From NCBI GenBank assembly GCA_022865305.1, contig JALHSP010000119.1:43053-107052 (forward strand): a stretch of 64,000 bases of DNA. The letters are read 5' to 3'. Below the pieces are notes generated by a model. The model did no database searches and was not told the origin of the DNA. It saw only the letters and a program-made list of their open reading frames with translations. The stretch's first letter is position 1. The number at the start of each line of letters is the position of its first letter. Origin of the DNA: Bacteroidales bacterium. Lineage in GTDB: Bacteria; Bacteroidota; Bacteroidia; Bacteroidales; VadinHA17. The translations under genes were made by a program, and so were the position numbers. Positions 52,296-63,675 of the stretch are shown piece by piece.

Positions 52296-52369
52296 GGGCC
52301 CATAGCTCAGATGGTTAGAGCACCTGACTCATAATCAGGGGGTCGCTGGTTCGATCCCAGCTGGGCCCA
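52296..52369 (+). tRNA. tRNA-Met (CAT); element integration target
   Basis: GGGCCCATAGCTCAGATGGTTAGAGCACCTGACTCATAATCAGGGGGTCGCTGGTTCGATCCCAGCTGGGCCCA; loop CTCATAA. A lysidine-modified tRNA-Ile cannot be excluded. Confidence 0.93.
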
Positions 52370-52372
52370 CAT
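52357..52372 (+). repeat. attL core direct repeat
   Basis: ccagctgggcccacat, identical to 58626-58641. Confidence 0.88.
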
Positions 52373-52484
52373 CATTAGTTCACATACTCTTCTAATTCAA
52401 CATGTTAGAGGAGTTTTAATTTAATAGGGGACAATGCAGGGTACAGTTTATATCTCATTAAACCAGGTGGGGCCACAATAATCA

Positions 52485-52531
52485 AATATAAAACTCTTTA
52501 ATTAAATACTTTAAAGAGATTTTATATTTTT
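52485..52531. terminator. Long bulged hairpin, candidate bidirectional terminator between the tRNA and the cargo gene
   Basis: AATATAAAACTCTTTAA ... TTAAAGAGATTTTATATTTTT: about 16 bp with one bulged base, then a T-run. Confidence 0.55.
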
Positions 52532-52666
52532 AGAGGTCATATTGGGGATCGCTTTACTTAGAATAAGATATGCCCACAATTATGAACGTAGCATTGTCCG
52601 TGTTAGATGTTGCCTTTTATTAAAATTCTAAGCTTATTTCTATTCAACTAGATTGTCGAGGTTAGG

Positions 52667-55189
52667 TTATTTTACTTCATATTTTATCCTTCTGGTTAAA
52701 GGAATTCCCTCCTCAGTAACACCCTCGGCTGTTATATTTATTGTTGCAGGGCTGTCTGCATTATAATAATCAAGTTCAAATGATTTGTTTTTTTCGATTT
52801 TAAAATCAGGTTGCCAGAATATTGTGGATCGAACATCTGGCAGAAGAGTCTGAGATTCCTGGCTATTATATTCAGGAGAATAAAAGATCCTTGGTACATC
52901 AAAACCCGATAAAATTTTAAAAACAGAATTTGGAGACAATTCAATGGGATTTCTTTTAAATCCCTGGTAGGTTATAATGTTTATGACTCCGTTTGCTCCT
53001 CTCATTCCATATAATGGAGAAGCATTCAGAACATCAATCCTGTCGACCATTTTCATAGGCAGAGTAAGTATACTGATTAATCCCATTGTATCTACCTCAT
53101 AACCATCTAATAAAATTAATGCACCATGGGCTTTTGGTTTCTTTTCCTCAGAGAACTGATAAGAGAACTGATTGCGAATGTAAATCTCCACGTCATCCGG
53201 ATAATAGATGCTCCTGGGATTTATTCCCCTTTTTACCATTACTCCTGGGATCCTTCCGGATATAAAACTAAAAACATCTCCACCATAATTTTCCATAGCT
53301 GGGGTTACTAGTAGTTCTTTATCAGGAGTCGCGTAAAATCTGCGGCTTTCTTTTACCCTCAATTCCTGGGGAGTCTCTGCTCTCTTTGCTATAATTGATA
53401 CTTCACCCAGATTTATGGTATCACTTAATTTATATTTCTTCAAATTATTAATCCTTATGATAGCCTCCTGTTGAAAAACCTTAAGATTTTTTGAAATAAG
53501 AGTAAATTCAATTGTATCTGGTTTGATATATTCTATATCCGGCGGGTTATACTGTATTGAATCGACAAAAATCCTTCCTGACATTTTTTCTAAATTATTT
53601 GTAGATGAAATAAATGCCTTTGTATTCCCATAAATATCAAGCTCATCGAATATGTACGATCCTTTCTTATCTGTTTTTGTATCCAGAAACATGGAAGAAT
53701 TATACGAAAAAAGCCCAAGGTTTATCTTTGCCCCCTCTACAGGCTTATTATTTAACATCCTTTTCACATTACCTGAAATGCGAAAACCAATCTCATGCTT
53801 AAATGATGTTATCGAATCATATTTCCATTTAAAATCTCTCCATCCCTGCGTCATAAGAAGAAGATCAAGTTTCTGAAGTCTTTTTTTATTCTCGGGATCA
53901 AAATAGTACGATGGTTGTTCAATGGGTCCGTGCACATCCGATTCAAGAAGGAACCATGAAGCAATGGAAACCTGGAATGGTGAAGAATTATCCGTAAACT
54001 GTGACTCTGCAGCTGAAAACGAAAAGTCGCCAGTGCCGGAAAATGATGAATCACCTGATAATGATAAAAACACAGAAATTTTTTCCCTCGGTTTGTACTC
54101 TGCTTTATCTGTGATTACATTTATCCTGGTATCATCATTTCTTTGAAGGAAAAAGAGTCTTTCGGCAAGGGGCAATCCTTCAAATTCGGATAATGTAACC
54201 CTGATAATTCCGTCTGGCAGACTATCAAGGGGTACAAGATAATTGTTGACCAGTGAATCCAGTTTAATTTTTACCTTTTGGCTGACCAGGTTCCGTGAAG
54301 AGAGATTGACGGTAAATTCGTGATTTATAACTGATGGTAATGTAATTTCATTAGTACTAACTGTAAGTATCAGATTTTTATCGGGAGTTACAAAGGTCCG
54401 GATGACTACTCCTGCAGGGAAACTCGATGGCAGCTGAGCTTTTATTTCAGTCCCGTCTTTGCTCCTGACTTTTGTATAATATGTATATCCGGGAACGGGT
54501 TTAATATTGAAAAAGCCCATTCCCAGGTGAGTGCTGTTAAAAATCGTTATAAGTTCACCTGCTGAGGAGTATAATTCAATTGTGACATCAGATCCTTTAC
54601 CAAGGGCATTTACAGCTTTGAAAGCGACTGTTGAAGTGACATTATCAATCAGTGAGCCTCCCTCGGGGAAGAAACTGATTTCGATTTTATTCTGGATTTT
54701 TTGTTTGACTCTGTTCAATCCTCCACCATCATCATATGGATTTATTACTGTTATCTTTTTAAGAGAAAAGAAATGGTCATCATAATTCCGCATATGGTTA
54801 GTATATGCCCTTATCCTGTAAATTCCCGAGGGAATTGAATCAGCCAGGTTGAAATCACCATTTCCCAGGCCATTTGATATTCGGATTGTTCTGCTCTGAA
54901 CGATTTTTGAGTCAGGTGTTAATAGCTCAACATGAAGATTATTGGTATTAACAGAAAGTCTGTTTGTTGAAGGATCAACGGCATAAGCTTTGAACCAGAT
55001 GTCATCGCCTGAGGAATAGCTACTGCGGTCAATATGCAGGTAAACCTTCTCAGCTAATTGTTTTGTGACATCTTTATTAAAATCCTGCGTAGTATTGTTC
55101 GACCTGCTATTTGAGGTACTGAAAAGTGTTAATATCATTCCCAGAGCAAAAGAAATAAGGTTCATTGACGAATGTATTATAGTTTTCAT
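52667..55189 (-). CDS. Secreted macroglobulin (MG2)-like / TonB-plug-like surface protein, cargo of the element
   Basis: AEKVYLHIDRSSYSSGDDIWFKAYAVD...SIPSGIYRIRAYTNHMRNYDDHFFSLKKITVINP; later plug-like SFISGRIPGVMVKRG...ILLDGYEVD...VDRIDVLNASPLYGMRGANGVINIITYQG. Confidence 0.8.
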   Translation of the reverse strand: MKTIIHSSMNLISFALGMILTLFSTSNSRSNNTTQDFNKDVTKQLAEKVYLHIDRSSYSSGDDIWFKAYAVDPSTNRLSVNTNNLHVELLTPDSKIVQSRTIRISNGLGNGDFNLADSIPSGIYRIRAYTNHMRNYDDHFFSLKKITVINPYDDGGGLNRVKQKIQNKIEISFFPEGGSLIDNVTSTVAFKAVNALGKGSDVTIELYSSAGELITIFNSTHLGMGFFNIKPVPGYTYYTKVRSKDGTEIKAQLPSSFPAGVVIRTFVTPDKNLILTVSTNEITLPSVINHEFTVNLSSRNLVSQKVKIKLDSLVNNYLVPLDSLPDGIIRVTLSEFEGLPLAERLFFLQRNDDTRINVITDKAEYKPREKISVFLSLSGDSSFSGTGDFSFSAAESQFTDNSSPFQVSIASWFLLESDVHGPIEQPSYYFDPENKKRLQKLDLLLMTQGWRDFKWKYDSITSFKHEIGFRISGNVKRMLNNKPVEGAKINLGLFSYNSSMFLDTKTDKKGSYIFDELDIYGNTKAFISSTNNLEKMSGRIFVDSIQYNPPDIEYIKPDTIEFTLISKNLKVFQQEAIIRINNLKKYKLSDTINLGEVSIIAKRAETPQELRVKESRRFYATPDKELLVTPAMENYGGDVFSFISGRIPGVMVKRGINPRSIYYPDDVEIYIRNQFSYQFSEEKKPKAHGALILLDGYEVDTMGLISILTLPMKMVDRIDVLNASPLYGMRGANGVINIITYQGFKRNPIELSPNSVFKILSGFDVPRIFYSPEYNSQESQTLLPDVRSTIFWQPDFKIEKNKSFELDYYNADSPATINITAEGVTEEGIPLTRRIKYEVK

Positions 55190-55402
55190 TAAACAAGACC
55201 CTTCTATATTTATACTCTACTTATATAGTAGTTTTTTTTGTCAGAATTTATGGTCTCTAGAATTGAGTCCAGGTAGCAGCTAACTAACTAAATAGTGTTT
55301 TATATGAGTAATAAACTTAATCATATTATACTAAATCGGGTATTTATAAGTACCTTAATTTTAATTAATATATCAAATTTACTACATTATTAGTTAATCA
55401 TA

Positions 55403-56223
55403 TTACTTTGACTTATATATCATTTCATTGATGATATCCAAATCAGAAAAAATGTTCTCTTTTGGTCTGAATTTAAATCCAGCTACTTTGTAATTGTCAT
55501 TTAAATGAACATTATATTTATCCGGACTTTCTGGAATCTGGTCAAAGTATTTATCACTTTCATATTCTTCGAAGTTTATTGTAGTAAAGATCCTTGAAAC
55601 ATCCCTTGAACAATGCCAGGGGAAATGCCTAAATTCAATATCATTCTTTGTTATATACTTCGTTAAATAACCTATTAATGACTTTCTGTTTTTATCTACT
55701 TTTTTTACATCCACGCCGTTATAGTTTTCTGTTTTAATCTCCCTAAGTACATCAACTCCTTTTTCCCTTTCAGAAGCTAAACAGGAGGCCATAAAACCAT
55801 TTACCTTCCTTATTGGCATGAAATCATTAGTTAGAAGATGAAAATGAATTGTACCGTTCTTCTGTCGTTCTGCAATCCACAAATAGGATTTTAAACCACA
55901 GTTTTTTCAAGCCGGCTGAAAGCATTACATTTCTTCCTGACTTTTGATTTATTCAGTTTATAACTTTTTTTATTCTCCTTTAATATTTTTTCATCAATCG
56001 GGAATGATTCTTTTATTGTCTTCTTTAACTCATCTCTGATCTTTTGGTTGGCCCGTCTCTTATGATCTCTCTTTATTGTGATTATTTCCCCATCTACAAG
56101 CCTTTTATTTGATGAACCACTAAACAAAGAAATTAGTTTCCGTCTGTTAAATGAAATGCTTGAATAAGAAATTTGATATGACATAATTCTGAGTTTGAAA
56201 TGTTCGTACTTAAATAAATCCAT
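55403..56223 (-). CDS. HUH-type rolling-circle replication-associated protein, split in two ORFs (56223-55891 and 55882-55403) by an apparent frameshift at 55902-55907
   Basis: HUH motif GTIHFHLL, Tyr motif SLIGYLTKYITKN. A -1 shift in A6 joins ...FSRLEK to NCGLKSYLWIAERQKNGTIHFHLL. Confidence 0.7.
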
Positions 56224-56263
56224 TATAGGTTATTATAGGTAAATTATTATAGGTTAGCTCATG

Positions 56264-56482
56264 CTATTTGATTACATAAAGAAAATCAGGAATAATATTT
56301 CCTTTGTAAAATCTCTTCAGATATTGCCTTGTCCGACGATCATATACATTGAAATATTTCCATTCGGAATGTTTCTTATCTAGGAACTCTGCAAAACCAT
56401 TCAGCTTATGAACTTTTGACCATTTTTTAGCCTCCCCTGAAGTTAAAAACACGGTAACAGAATAATCATTATTATGTCCCAT
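56264..56482 (-). CDS. Small hypothetical protein of the element
   Basis: ORF packed 3 bp from the HTH gene stop; MGHNNDYSVTVFLTSGEAKKWSKVHKLNGFAEFLDK. Confidence 0.5.
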   Translation of the reverse strand: MGHNNDYSVTVFLTSGEAKKWSKVHKLNGFAEFLDKKHSEWKYFNVYDRRTRQYLKRFYKGNIIPDFLYVIK

Positions 56483-56484
56483 AA

Positions 56485-56781
56485 TTACCCCCTTTTATAC
56501 TTAATATTTTTAACCGCTTGTATTGCCTGGTTAATCTCTTCAGCTTTGTACAAAACTCGATTTCCTATTCTATAGGATTGTACAATTCCTGACTTAGACC
56601 AATTGTTTAGAGTCGGAAGGGAAATTTTAAGTATTTCTGCAACCTCAAACCGACTTAAATAAGGAAGTTTTCTTACTGATTCTTTAGGTTCAGATTCTTT
56701 TTTGATTTTCTCGTCGAGAACTTCTCTGAAAATCTTTCTGAGATCCTCAGTATTTATTCCTTGTAAAATAATTGAATCCAT
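56485..56781 (-). CDS. Helix-turn-helix (HTH_17/excisionase-like) protein
   Basis: LPYLSRFEVAEILKISLPTLNNWSKSGIVQSYRIGNRVLYKAEEINQAI. Confidence 0.85.
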   Translation of the reverse strand: MDSIILQGINTEDLRKIFREVLDEKIKKESEPKESVRKLPYLSRFEVAEILKISLPTLNNWSKSGIVQSYRIGNRVLYKAEEINQAIQAVKNIKYKRG

Positions 56782-56850
56782 ACTTTTACTGATTATAACA
56801 TCAGCAAAAATATGTCATCCATTATGCAGTAGTATTCTGCTGTAGTACGA

Positions 56851-57207
56851 CTATTTTTTCTTCTTTATTCTATCTATATCACTTTTAACTAGTTCAACTT
56901 GATCACTAAACCCTGCTTTTTCAAAATATTTAAGAATAATACTTAAGTTTTTTATGTTTTTCCAGTAGTATAATTCAGAAATATATTGTCTCGTTGTTTC
57001 CAAATCTCTTCCAATGATAGGTGCATAAATCTCTGCTCTTTTTATATTGCTCCTCGCATGTTTCCCTATACCTAAATAATCTAATATAAGCATTTGAACT
57101 ACATGCGATAATTGCTCTTTCTTTTCCCTTTTATGCCCTTCTAGTTCTTCAATTCTTTTTTCAAGAGTTAAAATCCTCAATTTGCTTCCATGTGTAATTG
57201 ATTGCAT
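56851..57207 (-). CDS. Hypothetical coiled-coil protein of the element
   Basis: ORF next to the integrase gene, same strand; LRILTLEKRIEELEGHKREKKEQLSHVVQML. Confidence 0.55.
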   Translation of the reverse strand: MQSITHGSKLRILTLEKRIEELEGHKREKKEQLSHVVQMLILDYLGIGKHARSNIKRAEIYAPIIGRDLETTRQYISELYYWKNIKNLSIILKYFEKAGFSDQVELVKSDIDRIKKKK

Positions 57208-57216
57208 AATCTTTCT

Positions 57217-58443
57217 TTATTTAAAAAAAGGATGGTTTAATAAATTATCAGCGTTCTCTTCCTGGGAAATACTAATATATCTTAAAAAACTTTTCTCTGT
57301 CCGGTGTCCTGTTATTTTCATAATTGTTATTGATGGTATTCCGGCCAAATATAAATTAGTTGCAAAACTTCTTCTGGCAGTATGTGTACAGATTAAGCTT
57401 GATTTCTTAACTGTGTTCTTGACCAATTTACCCCCCTTTGTTATCGAAACTTCAACTAAATCATTGATTTTTGCTAAGGTCCCTAAATGTTTAAGATTAA
57501 GGTTCATTTTTGGATTTGATAATGCTTGCGGTATTTCACCATTATACTTGCTTATTATCTCTCTGACATATCTATGAAGAGGAATAATAACTATTTCATT
57601 AGTCTTGCTTGTCCTCATCTTTATCTTATTCCCGTCAATAATATTTTCCTTCTTCAGTTCTGAGAAATCCGAGAATCTTAATCCTGTAAAACATCCTATA
57701 ATAAACAGATCCCTTACACCTTCTAGTTGTTTGTCCTTCTTCAGATCCAGATTGTATATTCTCCCTAATTCTTCAACACTCAGGTATATTTTATCCGGCT
57801 CTTCAACCGGCCTTTTGAACTTTCTTTTTTTATACTCAATAGTCTTGTTAATACCTCTATCAGTAGCTTCATTTAAGAACGTCTTTAATATCTTAATATG
57901 TTTCCCGATTGTATTTTGCGAATAGTTCGCCTTAGTCAAATAAGATACAAATGAATTATAAAACTCCAGGTCAATATCCTCGAATGAAAAATTCCTCTTT
58001 ATTGAAGTGCGAAAATCTTTCAATTTTCCCAAGGTCGTATTATATGCTTTAATTGTCCCTTTTGCCTTTAGTGACTTGCTATCTTCAACGTACTTATCAA
58101 TGAAAGAGAACAAATCATCCTTTTTACTATCTGCGAATCTTATTGTCTTATCAAGTTCCTTTTTTAATAATTCATTCGTCGGTTCCAACCCATCATTTAA
58201 TAATCTTCGGTAGGCAGTGTTTCCTTTTGATTCTAGGGACTTTAACCTTACATTGAACTCTGGGTATTCTGGAAACTTTTTTGTCTCCTTTGCCCTCTGA
58301 TTTTCGAAATTCCAGTAATCAGGATTAATCTTTTCACCCGTTGAATACTTAAGTCTTTTATTATTATAGCTTAAAAACAGATAAATAAGCGATTCACCCT
58401 TAACTTTTTTTGGTTCTTTCAGAAAGAAATTTACCTCTGCCAT
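57217..58443 (-). CDS. Tyrosine recombinase / integrase (Bacteroidetes type)
   Basis: GCFTGLRFSDFSELKKENI (Arg I), CTHTARRSFATNLYLAGIPSITIMKITGHRTEKSFLRYISISQEE (HxxR, H, Tyr). Confidence 0.95.
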   Translation of the reverse strand: MAEVNFFLKEPKKVKGESLIYLFLSYNNKRLKYSTGEKINPDYWNFENQRAKETKKFPEYPEFNVRLKSLESKGNTAYRRLLNDGLEPTNELLKKELDKTIRFADSKKDDLFSFIDKYVEDSKSLKAKGTIKAYNTTLGKLKDFRTSIKRNFSFEDIDLEFYNSFVSYLTKANYSQNTIGKHIKILKTFLNEATDRGINKTIEYKKRKFKRPVEEPDKIYLSVEELGRIYNLDLKKDKQLEGVRDLFIIGCFTGLRFSDFSELKKENIIDGNKIKMRTSKTNEIVIIPLHRYVREIISKYNGEIPQALSNPKMNLNLKHLGTLAKINDLVEVSITKGGKLVKNTVKKSSLICTHTARRSFATNLYLAGIPSITIMKITGHRTEKSFLRYISISQEENADNLLNHPFFK

Positions 58444-58625
58444 ATTTTATTTATTTTAGTCTTTCAAAGATAATAAAATATTATCAGGGGACTGTACAGG
58501 GGACAGAATTATTTAATTTGATTATTTTTCTTGATTTTTGATTATCTTTGTAAACTGCCATTAATTGACTGTTATAGAGAATAATTAAGTATAATCGAGT
58601 AAAACTAAGAATAAAAAAGAGTAGT

Positions 58626-58641
58626 CCAGCTGGGCCCACAT
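58626..58641 (+). repeat. attR core direct repeat
   Basis: ccagctgggcccacat, identical to the tRNA-Met 3' end copy. Confidence 0.88.
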
Positions 58642-58705: not shown

Positions 58706-59112
58706 GTTTTGGATGAAAATTAACTGTTTCTATTATAGATTCTCTTCCTTTCAAGTTACAGGAAGACAGCATCACACATGTTTAACAGTTCTGAATAATA
58801 ATTAGAAGAGTTCAGGTCACAACCTAATTAGGGCAATTAGACTATCCCACTCATACAAAATCAGCTGCATAAGTGGTTTCGTTTGTCTCTTTATTTGGTG
58901 ACATTGCAATTCCAAATGAGAATCATAGAGTACTTGTTATAAATAACAATGAAACGGAATTAAAATAATGTAGAATTTGTGATCATACTCTTAATAACTT
59001 TAAGCCCTTGTTTAAAAGACAATGAATTGCATAAAGTATTATTTTAGAGATTATTTATCTTTGTATAAGATTGGTCATTATTAATTATTTGAACTATTCA
59101 TAAATTATAACG

Positions 59113-59727
59113 ATGGAAAAAAAGTTTTGCACTAACGAAATGTTTGATACTATCCTTTATGAATCAGAACATTTCAAAGTAGTTCCATCTCTAGGATCAT
59201 TAATTGAGGGATGGGTATTGATTACACCCAAAAAGGAAGCATTAAATTTCAGCATGCTTTATGAAGATATATACTCTGAGTTGGAGTTGGTAATTTCTGA
59301 AATAAGGAATATCCAACATTCACTTTATGGGAATTCCATATTATTTGAGCATGGTCCAATGAAGAATGCCAGCAAAACAGGATGTGGAGTAGATTATGCT
59401 CATTTACATTTGGTGCCAACAAGATTAGATCTTATCTCTGGAATTCAAAAATTCTTACATGTTGATTTCAAATGGCAAGAAATAGTAGGTATTTCTGAAA
59501 TCAATAGTATTAATAGGGATTTGCAAGATTACCTCTATTATCGAACACTTGATAATCGCCATTTTTGTACGTTCAATCAAGAATTTCCAAGTCAAATTTT
59601 TCGTCAAGTTATTGCCTATTCTCTAGGATTTCCTGAGAGGTATAACTGGAAAGAATATCCAGAATTAGCTGTTATTAATAAAACAATTCAAGATTTCGCA
59701 TCAATCAAAGTTTGCCATGAGCAATGA
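59113..59727 (+). CDS. HIT-like (histidine-triad superfamily) protein
   Basis: GWVLITPKKEALNFSML...ILFEHGP...VDYAHLHLVPTRLDL: HIT-like core with YAHLHLV in place of HxHxHxx. Confidence 0.7.
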   Translation: MEKKFCTNEMFDTILYESEHFKVVPSLGSLIEGWVLITPKKEALNFSMLYEDIYSELELVISEIRNIQHSLYGNSILFEHGPMKNASKTGCGVDYAHLHLVPTRLDLISGIQKFLHVDFKWQEIVGISEINSINRDLQDYLYYRTLDNRHFCTFNQEFPSQIFRQVIAYSLGFPERYNWKEYPELAVINKTIQDFASIKVCHEQ

Positions 59728-60295
59728 ATCAGGAAACAGTCCAGGTTTTGCACCATCTTACCCAACAGACGGTAGGGATATTGGAAATTGGAAAACTCGT
59801 TATCCAAAGGAAGCACAAAAAACAATTATCCTTGAAGCTATATACTTAGGATTAATACTTCTTCTTGTTCCTTGTTTTCTTTTATTATTTATTCTTTTAA
59901 AAGATCAACAGTTCTTTAATAACCAAATTATAAGAAAATACTCCTTCGCTTGGCTTGGTGGGACATTTGGGGGAGTTTTATTCTCATTAAAATGGTTATA
60001 TCATTCTATAGCTAAGAATATTTGGAATGAGGATAGACGATTATGGAGGTTATTTACTCCTCATCTCTCTGGCGGTTTTTCTTTTGCCATGGTTGTCCTT
60101 ATTTCATCAAATTTGATTAATGTTTTTAATCCTGAAGCCTTAAATAGATTAGGGACGATTTTTGGTATTGGTTTTTTGACTGGGTATTTTTCTGATTATG
60201 CAATTGGTAAATTTACTGATGTAGCTAAATCATTGTTTGGTACAAATCAGAAACAAGATTCTCTAACAGGGAATCAAAAAGATTCAAATGCCTGA
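59717..60295 (+). CDS. Hypothetical four-TM membrane protein
   Basis: Hydrophobic segments LEAIYLGLILLLVPCFLLLFILL, FAWLGGTFGGVLFSL, GGFSFAMVVLISSNLI, GTIFGIGFLTGYFSDYAIG; overlaps both neighbours. Confidence 0.7.
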   Translation: MSNESGNSPGFAPSYPTDGRDIGNWKTRYPKEAQKTIILEAIYLGLILLLVPCFLLLFILLKDQQFFNNQIIRKYSFAWLGGTFGGVLFSLKWLYHSIAKNIWNEDRRLWRLFTPHLSGGFSFAMVVLISSNLINVFNPEALNRLGTIFGIGFLTGYFSDYAIGKFTDVAKSLFGTNQKQDSLTGNQKDSNA

Positions 60296-62780
60296 ACTTA
60301 ATAAATATATTTTATTTAGTCAGGATTTTATACATGCCTCCCTCGAAAATTCTGGAGTTAAAGCATATAACCTTATTAAATATGGCTTAAACACCCCTGA
60401 TTTTTTAATTATCACGAATGAACTTTATTCACTGTGGTTAGAAAAAGAAGAATCTATAAGTGAATCAGAATCATTCCTACGAACAATAATCTCATATTTT
60501 GTAAACCGAGGCATTAATTCAATCATTGTCAGATCTAGTGCTGTTAATGAACAATTTGGAGAACGAGGCTTATTTGTGAGTGAGATTTGTAAGCCCCGAA
60601 ATAACTTGTTACTTCAAGTAATAATAAAAATCTATGAGGATTTTAAAAAGAAGTGCAATACTAATAAAATTGCCCTATTAATTCAGGAATACAAAGAGCC
60701 CATTGTAATAGGACATTTATCAAATGAAAGAAGGGTAACACCAAAAAAGGAGAATTGGTTTGTAGAAAAGGAGATACGTTCAGAAAAAGAAATATCACTA
60801 ACAAAATTTAGGACTTCAGGTAATGAAAAAAAGGGATTGGATTATTCTATATATTCCTGCTTAAATATTAAATCGTTGAATTATAGCCTTGAATCAATTG
60901 CCTCCTTTTTTTGTAGAGAAGATTATAGATTTCATATTGAATGGTTATGGGACGGAAAGGTGTTCTGGATTTTGCAGATTGATGAGGAAATTAATAAGAA
61001 TCAAGGTATAAAACCAGGTAGTGAATGGATCAAAGGAAGATGGAACCAAAGTAAAAATCCTTTTACTGATCTAAAAGGACTTGAAGTATTTGAAACAATT
61101 GAAACTTCACGGAAAAACTGGCCTAAAATATCATGCATCAAGTCATTTCGTGAATTAGAACTACCTTTTTGGCAAATTTTTATTCTGGAAAATGAGAGTA
61201 TTATTGAAAGCTTATTTGCTGGCCACCCTGACCTTTCCTTAATATCAGATTTAAAAAATCTATTGACCTCACCAATTGTAATTAGAAGCGATGTAAGAGA
61301 TAATCAAGAATTGTTGCTAGCGAGAACTGATACAATATTTAACTTAGACAGTGCATTAGAGTTTTTAATAAGCGAATCACAAAGATTTATTAACGGAGGA
61401 TTAAGGTCAGACCAATTCTGCTTTCTGATACATAAGTTTATTGTTTCTGTGGCTGGAGCCCTAGCCTATGCAAAACCTAACCTGGAAAGGGTTAGAATAG
61501 ATTCAACATGGGGAATTGTAGACGGCCTGTATTTTTATCCTCATGATTCTTATGAAGTTGATATAAGAGCAGAAAAAATCGCAAAGAAACTCAGATGTAA
61601 GCATAAGTATGTTGACTTTGATGAGAACGGGACATGGTATGCAAAAGAGGCAGGTATTAATTTTGATTGGAGACAATCTATAACGGACTATCAAATTTCA
61701 CAAATAGCAACCATGACTCAATCGATAGTTGATAAGCTTGAGAAACCTACGACTGTAATGTTTTTCATCAATAAGAGAAAAGGGTTGCCAGAAGTATTAC
61801 CTTGGTTTTATTCTATTGATGAAATATATGATTCTAAAACTGATTATACTGACATAATCTTTTCAGAGAAAAAAATAATTATTAACTCAAAAGATGACTT
61901 TTATAGATATAAAGATCTTGATTTCAGTCAACACAAAAAGAATAAATTAAAACTATGCTTGGACGTTGACCTTTTAAGAGATAAGGATTTTATTGAAGAA
62001 ATCGCAGATTTTGCAAAAGAAAATGACTTTGTAGTTGATATGGAAGGGAGCATTCTGTCGCATCCTTATTATGTTCTAAGATCAAAAGGTGTAGTTGTCC
62101 GATGTTTCAATCCTCTTGATATAAGTCCCTCCACCAAAGAGTTTTATAAACTTGTGAGAGATCAAATTCCAATCAAAATCGAAAGCCAAAATGAGACTGT
62201 TATTAGCACCAAGGTGTTACCTGGTGAGCTTCTCAACTATTTGAAAGAAAAGGCAATAGAAGAGGCTTTTGAATTGTACTGGAGTAGAGATAACGATAAT
62301 ACTATTGAGGAACTTTCGGATTTATTTGAAGTCATTATTGGCGTGTGTAAAGCCTTTGGAATCGAATTAAAGGAAATTGAAAAGATTGCTGAAAAGAAAA
62401 GGCAGAAAAGAGGTGGATTTAATGAGGGAGTATATCTTATTGCTACAAAAGAAAACTCTCTATTTCAGCTTACAAAACCTGAACAAAAACTCTTTTCTGA
62501 AAGCAGTGAAAAACAGAAAATAAATGTCCCAATAAAACCTGTCATTAAATTTTTTCAAAAAGGTCAAATTCGAAATTTAAAATCGCTTTCAAAAGTTGAT
62601 AAATTCGAATTATCATATATCAATAACTACAATTCATTATCAAATAAATTTAAGTACCTGTTAAAAGATGAGAATTATAATGGCATCACTATTGAATATA
62701 AAGAAAAGTGCATCAAGATATCATTAGAAAAAATCGACTTCTCTCCTGAAAAAGGTCAGATGGATTTATTTAAGGAATAG
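60288..62780 (+). CDS. PPDK/PEP-synthase N-terminal (ATP-grasp)-like protein with swivel-like SH motif and C-terminal MazG-like domain
   Basis: GVKAYNLIKYGLNTPDFLIIT, IIVRSSAVNEQFGERGLFVS, VRIDSTWGIVDGLYFYP; GSILSHPYYVLRSKGVVV; FYKLVRDQIPIKIE...EKAIEEAFEL...EELSDLFEVIIGVCKAFGI...KRGGF. Confidence 0.72.
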   Translation: MPELNKYILFSQDFIHASLENSGVKAYNLIKYGLNTPDFLIITNELYSLWLEKEESISESESFLRTIISYFVNRGINSIIVRSSAVNEQFGERGLFVSEICKPRNNLLLQVIIKIYEDFKKKCNTNKIALLIQEYKEPIVIGHLSNERRVTPKKENWFVEKEIRSEKEISLTKFRTSGNEKKGLDYSIYSCLNIKSLNYSLESIASFFCREDYRFHIEWLWDGKVFWILQIDEEINKNQGIKPGSEWIKGRWNQSKNPFTDLKGLEVFETIETSRKNWPKISCIKSFRELELPFWQIFILENESIIESLFAGHPDLSLISDLKNLLTSPIVIRSDVRDNQELLLARTDTIFNLDSALEFLISESQRFINGGLRSDQFCFLIHKFIVSVAGALAYAKPNLERVRIDSTWGIVDGLYFYPHDSYEVDIRAEKIAKKLRCKHKYVDFDENGTWYAKEAGINFDWRQSITDYQISQIATMTQSIVDKLEKPTTVMFFINKRKGLPEVLPWFYSIDEIYDSKTDYTDIIFSEKKIIINSKDDFYRYKDLDFSQHKKNKLKLCLDVDLLRDKDFIEEIADFAKENDFVVDMEGSILSHPYYVLRSKGVVVRCFNPLDISPSTKEFYKLVRDQIPIKIESQNETVISTKVLPGELLNYLKEKAIEEAFELYWSRDNDNTIEELSDLFEVIIGVCKAFGIELKEIEKIAEKKRQKRGGFNEGVYLIATKENSLFQLTKPEQKLFSESSEKQKINVPIKPVIKFFQKGQIRNLKSLSKVDKFELSYINNYNSLSNKFKYLLKDENYNGITIEYKEKCIKISLEKIDFSPEKGQMDLFKE

Positions 62781-63072
62781 CTTATCCTCATGTCTTAACC
62801 CCCTATAAGTTGGACAGATTTATTAAAAGAATTTAGTGCAAATCATCTTTGGATAAGCCCAGAACGACTATCAATTTTGGTGGACATGAGCAAACCTATA
62901 TGTTGATAGTGTCTCCAGTGACAAATTTGACATGTCTGGTTCAATTTTAATACCCTGTAGACAGTTTTAATCTTCTAAATTTACAATATTGTCAAATTAT
63001 CGGATTGGCCCATAAAATATGACTCTTCTTATATTATGCTTCGTCAAGAGAAAGGCGTATTTTGGTCCGATT

Positions 63073-63675
63073 ATGAAAAATCTCATCATACATCCAGGAG
63101 ACCAAACTACGGATTTCCTTATCCCAATGTATGCTAACCTCAAAAACAAAACTGTTGTCAAAGGTGGTATTACAAAATTGGAATTACGGGAACTTATTGT
63201 ATCCTATGATAGGGTTCTTATGCTTGGCCATGGTTCTCCATATGGATTATTAAATCCTGATCAGTTTCCTGATGCGGGTTCATATATAATTGATAATTCG
63301 ATGGTTTTACCGTTAATGAACAAATCAAACAGCATATATATTTGGTGCTTCGCCAGTAAATTCGTCCATCAACATGAACTCTCAGGGCTGTGCACTGGGA
63401 TGTTCATCAGCGAAGTCAGAGAAGCGAATTCCTACTGTTTTGATAACATAGATGAGAATTTGATAGATCAGTCAAATGAGAGATTCTCTTGGATAGTATC
63501 AAAATATTTAAGCCAGCCGATTGAGATCTTGTACCAAAAATTACTGTATGAGTATGAGCTGCTAGCAAGAACAAACCCCATAGCTAGATTTAACCTTGAA
63601 CGCTTGTACATTAGATCCCGAAATATAGAAAAATATAGACGGGTTATTCATTGTTTTTCAAATTACAGAAAGTAA
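63073..63675 (+). CDS. Uncharacterised protein with MLGHG and YIWC motifs (caspase/CHAT-like fold is speculative)
   Basis: MKNLIIHPGDQTTDFLIPMYANLKNKTVVKGGITKLELRELIVSYDRVLMLGHGSPYGLLN...SIYIWCFASKFVHQHELSGLCTGMFISEV; ORF extends upstream to 63019. Confidence 0.65.
   Translation: MKNLIIHPGDQTTDFLIPMYANLKNKTVVKGGITKLELRELIVSYDRVLMLGHGSPYGLLNPDQFPDAGSYIIDNSMVLPLMNKSNSIYIWCFASKFVHQHELSGLCTGMFISEVREANSYCFDNIDENLIDQSNERFSWIVSKYLSQPIEILYQKLLYEYELLARTNPIARFNLERLYIRSRNIEKYRRVIHCFSNYRK

Follow-up and report, generated by a model that had tools for sequence, protein, structure and literature searches.

We have analysed a three-gene operon at positions 59113-62780 of a 64,000-nucleotide stretch of Bacteroidales DNA (hereafter, the window), and observed that its genes, which encode a HIT-superfamily protein, a four-helix membrane protein and a dikinase/MazG fusion, form a strictly conserved, obligate unit that is a horizontally mobile, patchily distributed cassette. 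All 3 chemistries represented in this trio are nucleotide-acting and have kept their active-site residues, and the window copy is located in a chromosomal slot where relatives carry defence genes. Because the trio is obligate, mobile and patchy, occupies a defence slot and combines nucleotide-acting chemistries, we consider it likely to be an undescribed anti-phage or anti-invader module.

Conservation of the trio as a unit

An earlier note, made from the letters of the window and a list of its open reading frames (ORFs), had described an overlapping trio at this location, comprising a HIT-like gene, a gene for a protein with 4 transmembrane segments and an ATP-grasp/MazG fusion. The ORFs and their overlaps, 11 bp between genes 1 and 2 and 8 bp between genes 2 and 3, are exactly as it claimed, and its 3 assignments agree with the profile and structure comparisons described below. 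Our comparisons also brought out features that the note had overlooked: a degenerate second copy of the ATP-grasp module, similarity of the HIT protein to CwfJ/CWF19 proteins over its full length, a methylase-bearing subtype, and the position of the trio outside a nearby element flanked by attachment-site (att)-like repeats.

We scanned 85,462 species genomes with the gene 2 membrane protein alone as query, which yielded 24 loci. In all 24, contig-edge truncations excepted, gene 2 is flanked on the same strand by a HIT gene before it and a dikinase/MazG gene after it, a degree of conservation that is far above chance. The earlier note had asked whether the trio stays together and had named purely metabolic contexts as the alternative; we observed that all independent loci of sufficient length keep the gene order, and saw no conserved pathway neighbour. 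The gene junctions range from -14 to +34 bp in 16 tabulated loci without an inserted methylase. Pairwise distances of the 3 proteins correlate with each other (r 0.82-0.87, Mantel p <=0.0005), as is expected where proteins evolve together.

The hosts belong to at least 8 phyla (Bacteroidota, Acidobacteriota, Thermodesulfobacteriota, Nitrospirota, Actinomycetota, Vulcanimicrobiota, Planctomycetota and Pseudomonadota). The trio is present in 2 of 58 genomes of the same genus, and a close match to the membrane protein was found in ~1% or fewer of the sampled Bacteroidota and Alphaproteobacteria. An extra full trio is carried on a 231-kb Caulobacter plasmid, the only one in the plasmid records searched, and one further copy was found in an alphaproteobacterial genome; none was found in the phage records searched. 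Two copies appear to have decayed, although either may reflect an assembly fault: in L009 (10624-12301) the methylase and gene 3 are truncated and joined to each other, and in L019 (9968-10626) the membrane gene is split over 2 frames.

Domains and invariant residues of the 3 proteins

The gene 3 product exceeded the Pfam cut-off for PRA-PH (23.1 bits, cut-off 21.3) and fell just below that for PPDK_N. Its AlphaFold2 model, with a predicted local distance difference test score (pLDDT) of 75, matched rifampin phosphotransferase (E 6e-11), the phenolic dikinase subunit HpeI and phosphoenolpyruvate (PEP) synthase in Foldseek searches. The first of its modules listed in Table 1 aligned with the PPDK_N profile (hhalign, E 4.8e-7), and the ATP- and metal-site residues K25, R82, E218 and Q230, which characterize PPDK_N-type ATP-grasp domains, are invariant in 22 of 22 sequences; by these residues, module 1 looks to be an active PPDK-type ATP-grasp. 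Module 2 shares homology with module 1 in an hhalign comparison (E 4.4e-6) and weakly matches rifampin phosphotransferase, and it is without the Glu/Gln metal ligands. The segment that follows is probably a phosphohistidine swivel region, in which G587, L590 and H592 are invariant. In the best local alignment, which was non-significant (E ~0.24-0.27), H592 is in exact register with His421 of E. coli PpsA, and a likewise non-significant best local alignment to the PEP-utilizer profile also places it on the active-site His; this segment gave no Pfam match for a phosphohistidine domain. In the MazG domain, the metal ligands E658, E659, E662, E675 and D678 of the EExxE...ExxD pattern are invariant. 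The C-terminus beyond this domain is poorly conserved. MazG domains of the same KLVRD type are also fused to an HNH nuclease in 2 other Bacteroidota (L005:901-1809 and L006:1486-2388) and adjoin HNH genes on a Bacillus plasmid (L093:3992-5388), possibly another nuclease-MazG pairing.

The gene 1 product of the window scored below the Pfam HIT cut-off (17.5 against 21.5 bits), but 15 of the 23 family members match this family, and the catalytic H97 and H99 of the HIT motif (H-phi-H-phi-H-phi-phi, the middle His of which is the nucleophile) are invariant in 23 of 23. The motif reads YAHLH in the window and HAHLH in most relatives, with His at the first position in 14 of 23. Other invariant residues are E79-H80-G81, Q161 and R164, and the C-terminal part carries an SQxxR motif. 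The family profile matched human CWF19-like protein 1 in the PDB over profile positions 45-211 (E 1.5e-6), and some members match CwfJ_C_1 and CwfJ_C_2.

For gene 2, structure prediction gave 4 helices (pLDDT 85). The conserved segments are a basic and aromatic stretch, KWLxHxxAKxxWxxDRRxWRxFxP, whose positive charges point to a loop on the cytosolic side, and GYFSD. The window protein matched no Pfam family over cut-off and no transporter family, and a fold search of the PDB returned no match better than E 0.57; we therefore rejected a known effector fold for this protein. Distant relatives of gene 2 make up a wider unnamed and unannotated family in Bacteroidota, some members of which carry a C-terminal TIG domain, and one of these relatives adjoins FRG and DUF4062/nSTAND genes.

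Table 1. Positions of the trio, its modules and associated features (window numbering, unless a locus is given)
Feature	Position	Strand	Remarks
Gene 1, HIT-superfamily protein	59113..59727	+	204 aa, CwfJ/CWF19-like
Gene 2, four-helix membrane protein of an unnamed family	59717..60295	+	192 aa
Gene 3, dikinase/MazG fusion	60288..62780	+	830 aa
ATP-grasp module 1, PPDK_N-like	60288..61019	+	Residues ~1-244; profile and residues
Degenerate ATP-grasp-like module 2	61110..61847	+	Residues ~275-520; homology to module 1
Probable swivelling phosphohistidine region	61857..62135	+	Residues ~524-616; GSxL(S/A)H592...G motif
COG4997-type MazG/PRA-PH domain (KLVRD)	62133..62459	+	Residues ~616-724; Pfam and motifs
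Conserved upstream region, left edge of transferable cassette	58991..59112	+	DNA homology to sister-species copy
attL-like 16-mer at 3' end of tRNA-Met (52296-52370)	52357..52372	+	Context, outside trio
attR-like exact copy of the 16-mer	58626..58641	+	Context, outside trio
Wider gene 2 family members	L163:5787-6485, L164:5601-6494, L165:5637-6371, L167:5626-6657, L168:5514-6455		

Mobility, chromosomal slot and neighbouring genes

The extent of the mobile unit can be seen from comparison with a copy in a sister species, whose gene 3 protein is 79% identical to that of the window. DNA homology between the 2 copies is limited to 58991-62779, that is, the 3 genes and 122 bp upstream of them, which is probably the promoter region, and the flanks are wholly different. 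The sister-species copy is located ~5 kb from another tRNA-Met gene, and an ORF for a serine recombinase extends over the 3' end of that gene. In 7 loci the trio has serine or tyrosine recombinases as neighbours.

The earlier note had placed the trio beside an integration hotspot, and an exact 16-bp repeat, one copy of which is at the tRNA-Met gene, does bracket a tyrosine integrase (0 matches expected by chance). The segment between the outer ends of the repeats, 52357-58641, appears as a small integrative element with the integrase, a helix-turn-helix gene and replication-type genes. We considered the trio as cargo of this element and found that unsupported, since the trio begins 471 bp past the attR-like copy; it may belong to another element, in tandem with the first, that ends on the right beyond the contig.

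In the related species G054 (locus L133), an oligonucleotide cyclase of the cyclic oligonucleotide-based anti-phage signalling system (CBASS) and its two-transmembrane (2TM) effector lie between the same tRNA-Met gene and a homologue of window gene 63019-63675, and a Type IIG restriction-modification gene is located just beyond that interval. In another relative, G013 (locus L139), AbiEi/AbiEii follow the same tRNA-Met gene, at a downstream distance of a few kb. Within this genus, therefore, the slot serves as a site for defence genes, a genus-level defence hotspot. The product of 63019-63675, the next gene of the window after the trio, is a 218-aa orphan protein whose LGHG...IWCFAS motifs suggest, at the level of motifs, a caspase-like His/Cys dyad; of 56 genomes of the same genus, 8 have it, and it adjoins the CBASS and restriction-modification genes in G054.

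Neighbours of the trio elsewhere include a GIY-YIG gene of type PDC-S14 (L029), Mrr_cat (L031) and nSTAND3 (L007), and in L016 the trio adjoins a HerA-like ATPase that has a D12 fragment beside it (judged by eye, with one gene partly masked). The segment upstream of the trio in that locus (L016:1-3911) holds the C-terminus of a D12 methylase, this ATPase and a gene that may be NurA-like, the last judged by eye and without a Pfam match; the segment is possibly a separate defence operon.

A D12 N6-adenine methylase gene was found in 7 of 26 loci, a number that led us to reject it as a universal fourth gene. It lies co-directionally between genes 2 and 3 in 5 of these (L009, where it is truncated, L011, L012, L013, and L019, where it is cut by the contig end), just downstream on the opposite strand in L022, and as a fragment ~4 kb upstream in L016. 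Its best PADLOC model is PD-Lambda-5_B (E ~1e-107). In a concatenated tree, which did not include L009 and L019, the other 5 methylase-bearing loci fall into a single clade with full support; in the HIT tree 6 of the 7 group together, and the long-branched L022 falls elsewhere.

Comparison with known systems and proposed function

The motifs examined place the trio in the HIT, PPDK_N and MazG superfamilies, and by the components examined it differs from Thoeris, CBASS and PD-Lambda-5. Thoeris with ThsC (PADLOC Thoeris type II) likewise has a HIT-family nucleotide hydrolase in a nucleotide-signalling defence operon, and ThsC has been proposed to act as a second-messenger off-switch (PMC8565338). 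However, one of the 23 HIT proteins matched the ThsC model weakly (E 3.7e-4) and the other 22 did not; searches of genes 1-3 against Pfam, PADLOC and NCBIfam gave no TIR, SIR2 or Macro match, hence no TIR protein equivalent to ThsB in gene 2 or 3 and no ThsA counterpart, and the enzyme of the trio is instead a dikinase/MazG fusion. The resemblance to type I CBASS lies in a compact operon that combines a nucleotide enzyme with a small multi-helix membrane protein, and in the use of the same chromosomal slot by a relative; yet no cyclase (CD-NTase) model matched the trio of the window, and gene 2 does not match the 2TM/SLATT effector models. PD-Lambda-5 shares its D12 methylase family with the four-gene subtype only: that system comprises A and B components, whereas genes 1-3 gave no match to PD-Lambda-5_A and the window copy is without the methylase.

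The individual proteins also differ from their closest enzymatic relatives. Gene 3 resembles rifampin phosphotransferase, PEP synthase and HpeHI in its ATP-grasp of the PPDK_N type, where K, R, E and Q are invariant, and its probable mobile His region would be a further likeness. It differs in that a second ATP-grasp, devoid of metal ligands, stands in tandem, in having no acceptor domain of a known kind and in the fused C-terminal MazG; its His motif is GSxL(S/A)H where the dikinases have GGxT(S/C)H, and QxD replaces their QxR. The MazG part resembles COG4997-type MazG/PRA-PH proteins in its KLVRD start and EExxE...ExxD pattern, although these are normally small stand-alone proteins. The likeness of gene 1 to CWF19L/CwfJ covers nearly the full length of the protein and takes in its C-terminal part, but gene 1 is bacterial, is without the N-terminal half of CWF19L and is the operon partner of a membrane protein. 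We found no description of the trio in the literature searched, which lay apart from the main survey of MazG immune effectors, and an earlier prediction of it is possible. Nicastro et al. in 2023 and Burroughs et al. in 2015 reportedly proposed MazG and other nucleotide-acting domains as immune components.

At a general level, we give even chances to a scheme in which the module opposes invaders through a nucleotide or nucleotide-like metabolite that is coupled to the membrane partner; confidence in each single step is lower. In such a scheme, the first ATP-grasp would cleave ATP and load a phosphate on His592. The second, degenerate ATP-grasp would hold the acceptor to which this phosphate is then passed, and the phosphorylated product would probably be a nucleotide. 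MazG, fused to the same protein, may hydrolyse a substrate or product of the NTP type to its monophosphate, and the HIT hydrolase may cleave a nucleotide conjugate, so that the system is restrained or reset. The four-helix membrane protein would be the sensor or effector target of this chemistry. A more specific version, which we put forward tentatively and think unlikely, is a new immune class in which the signal for the membrane protein is a phosphorylated nucleotide made by a phosphohistidine dikinase in place of a cyclase or TIR enzyme, with MazG and HIT degrading that signal.

Several observations weigh against a defence role or against parts of this scheme. The PADLOC models gave no convincing match to the window trio. 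A number of copies, including L017, L023, L024 and L030, stand among ordinary genes, so that not all are in defence islands; recombinases or defence genes are beside many copies but not all, and these loci, viewed without a random-locus control, suggest an enrichment of defence genes. The swivel assignment was made by motif register and predicted secondary structure, with a non-significant profile comparison. Distant relatives of gene 2 occur without genes 1 and 3 in seemingly ordinary contexts, and gene 2 therefore need not be a toxic effector. The earlier note's suggestion of a defence or stress module is borne out in part: relatives carry CBASS, a Type IIG restriction-modification gene and AbiE at the same slot, and the defence function itself is argued from context.

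Among other explanations, MazG, with or without HIT, might destroy (deoxy)nucleoside triphosphates or cofactors during infection, with the membrane protein as anchor or sensor and the ATP-grasp/His part as an ATP-dependent switch. The invariant catalytic residues of MazG, the HNH nucleases fused to or beside KLVRD-type MazG in other loci, and the listing of MazG among predicted, unvalidated defence domains (PMC13092281) are consistent with this. Two ATP-grasp copies and an invariant His would not be needed for such depletion, and we judge it somewhat unlikely. Stand-alone COG4997-type proteins also exist and are presumably house-cleaning enzymes. The methylase-bearing loci permit a restriction-like alternative in which the trio senses DNA that lacks a host adenine methyl mark and D12 marks self, methylase-free copies using other host methylases; the co-directional position of the methylase in 5 loci and its PD-Lambda-5_B match fit this, as do 2 D12 genes over the Pfam cut-off elsewhere in the host genome. 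However, in 19 of the 26 loci the stretch read, which is short in some cases, shows no methylase, and no nuclease or DNA-binding domain was found in the trio; we judge this alternative quite unlikely.

Rifampin phosphotransferase and HpeI have the nearest folds among solved structures, and the operon might instead be a small-molecule detoxification or resistance cassette: a toxic compound would be phosphorylated by the rifampin-phosphotransferase-like dikinase and kept out with the aid of the membrane protein. A second ATP-grasp stands where the acceptor domain is expected, MazG and HIT would be left without a role, gene 2 resembles no transporter family, and the location is one shared with CBASS and AbiE; we regard this explanation as decidedly improbable. 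An ordinary accessory operon for nucleotide salvage or repair would account for domains that are all known from house-cleaning metabolism and for the ordinary genes that flank some copies, but hardly for a rare and patchy trio with no conserved pathway neighbour, a cassette-sized mobile unit and a defence slot, and we hold it to be very improbable indeed.

Our preferred reading remains that of an anti-invader module. If the trio is a defence system, its dikinase/MazG fusion would join the nucleotide-based chemistries of bacterial immunity, and a bacterial CWF19-like HIT protein would be placed in a conflict setting. The operon is small (3.7 kb), with 4 separately mutable active sites, and is open to catalytic tests, and the methylase-bearing subtype makes the question of self versus non-self directly testable.

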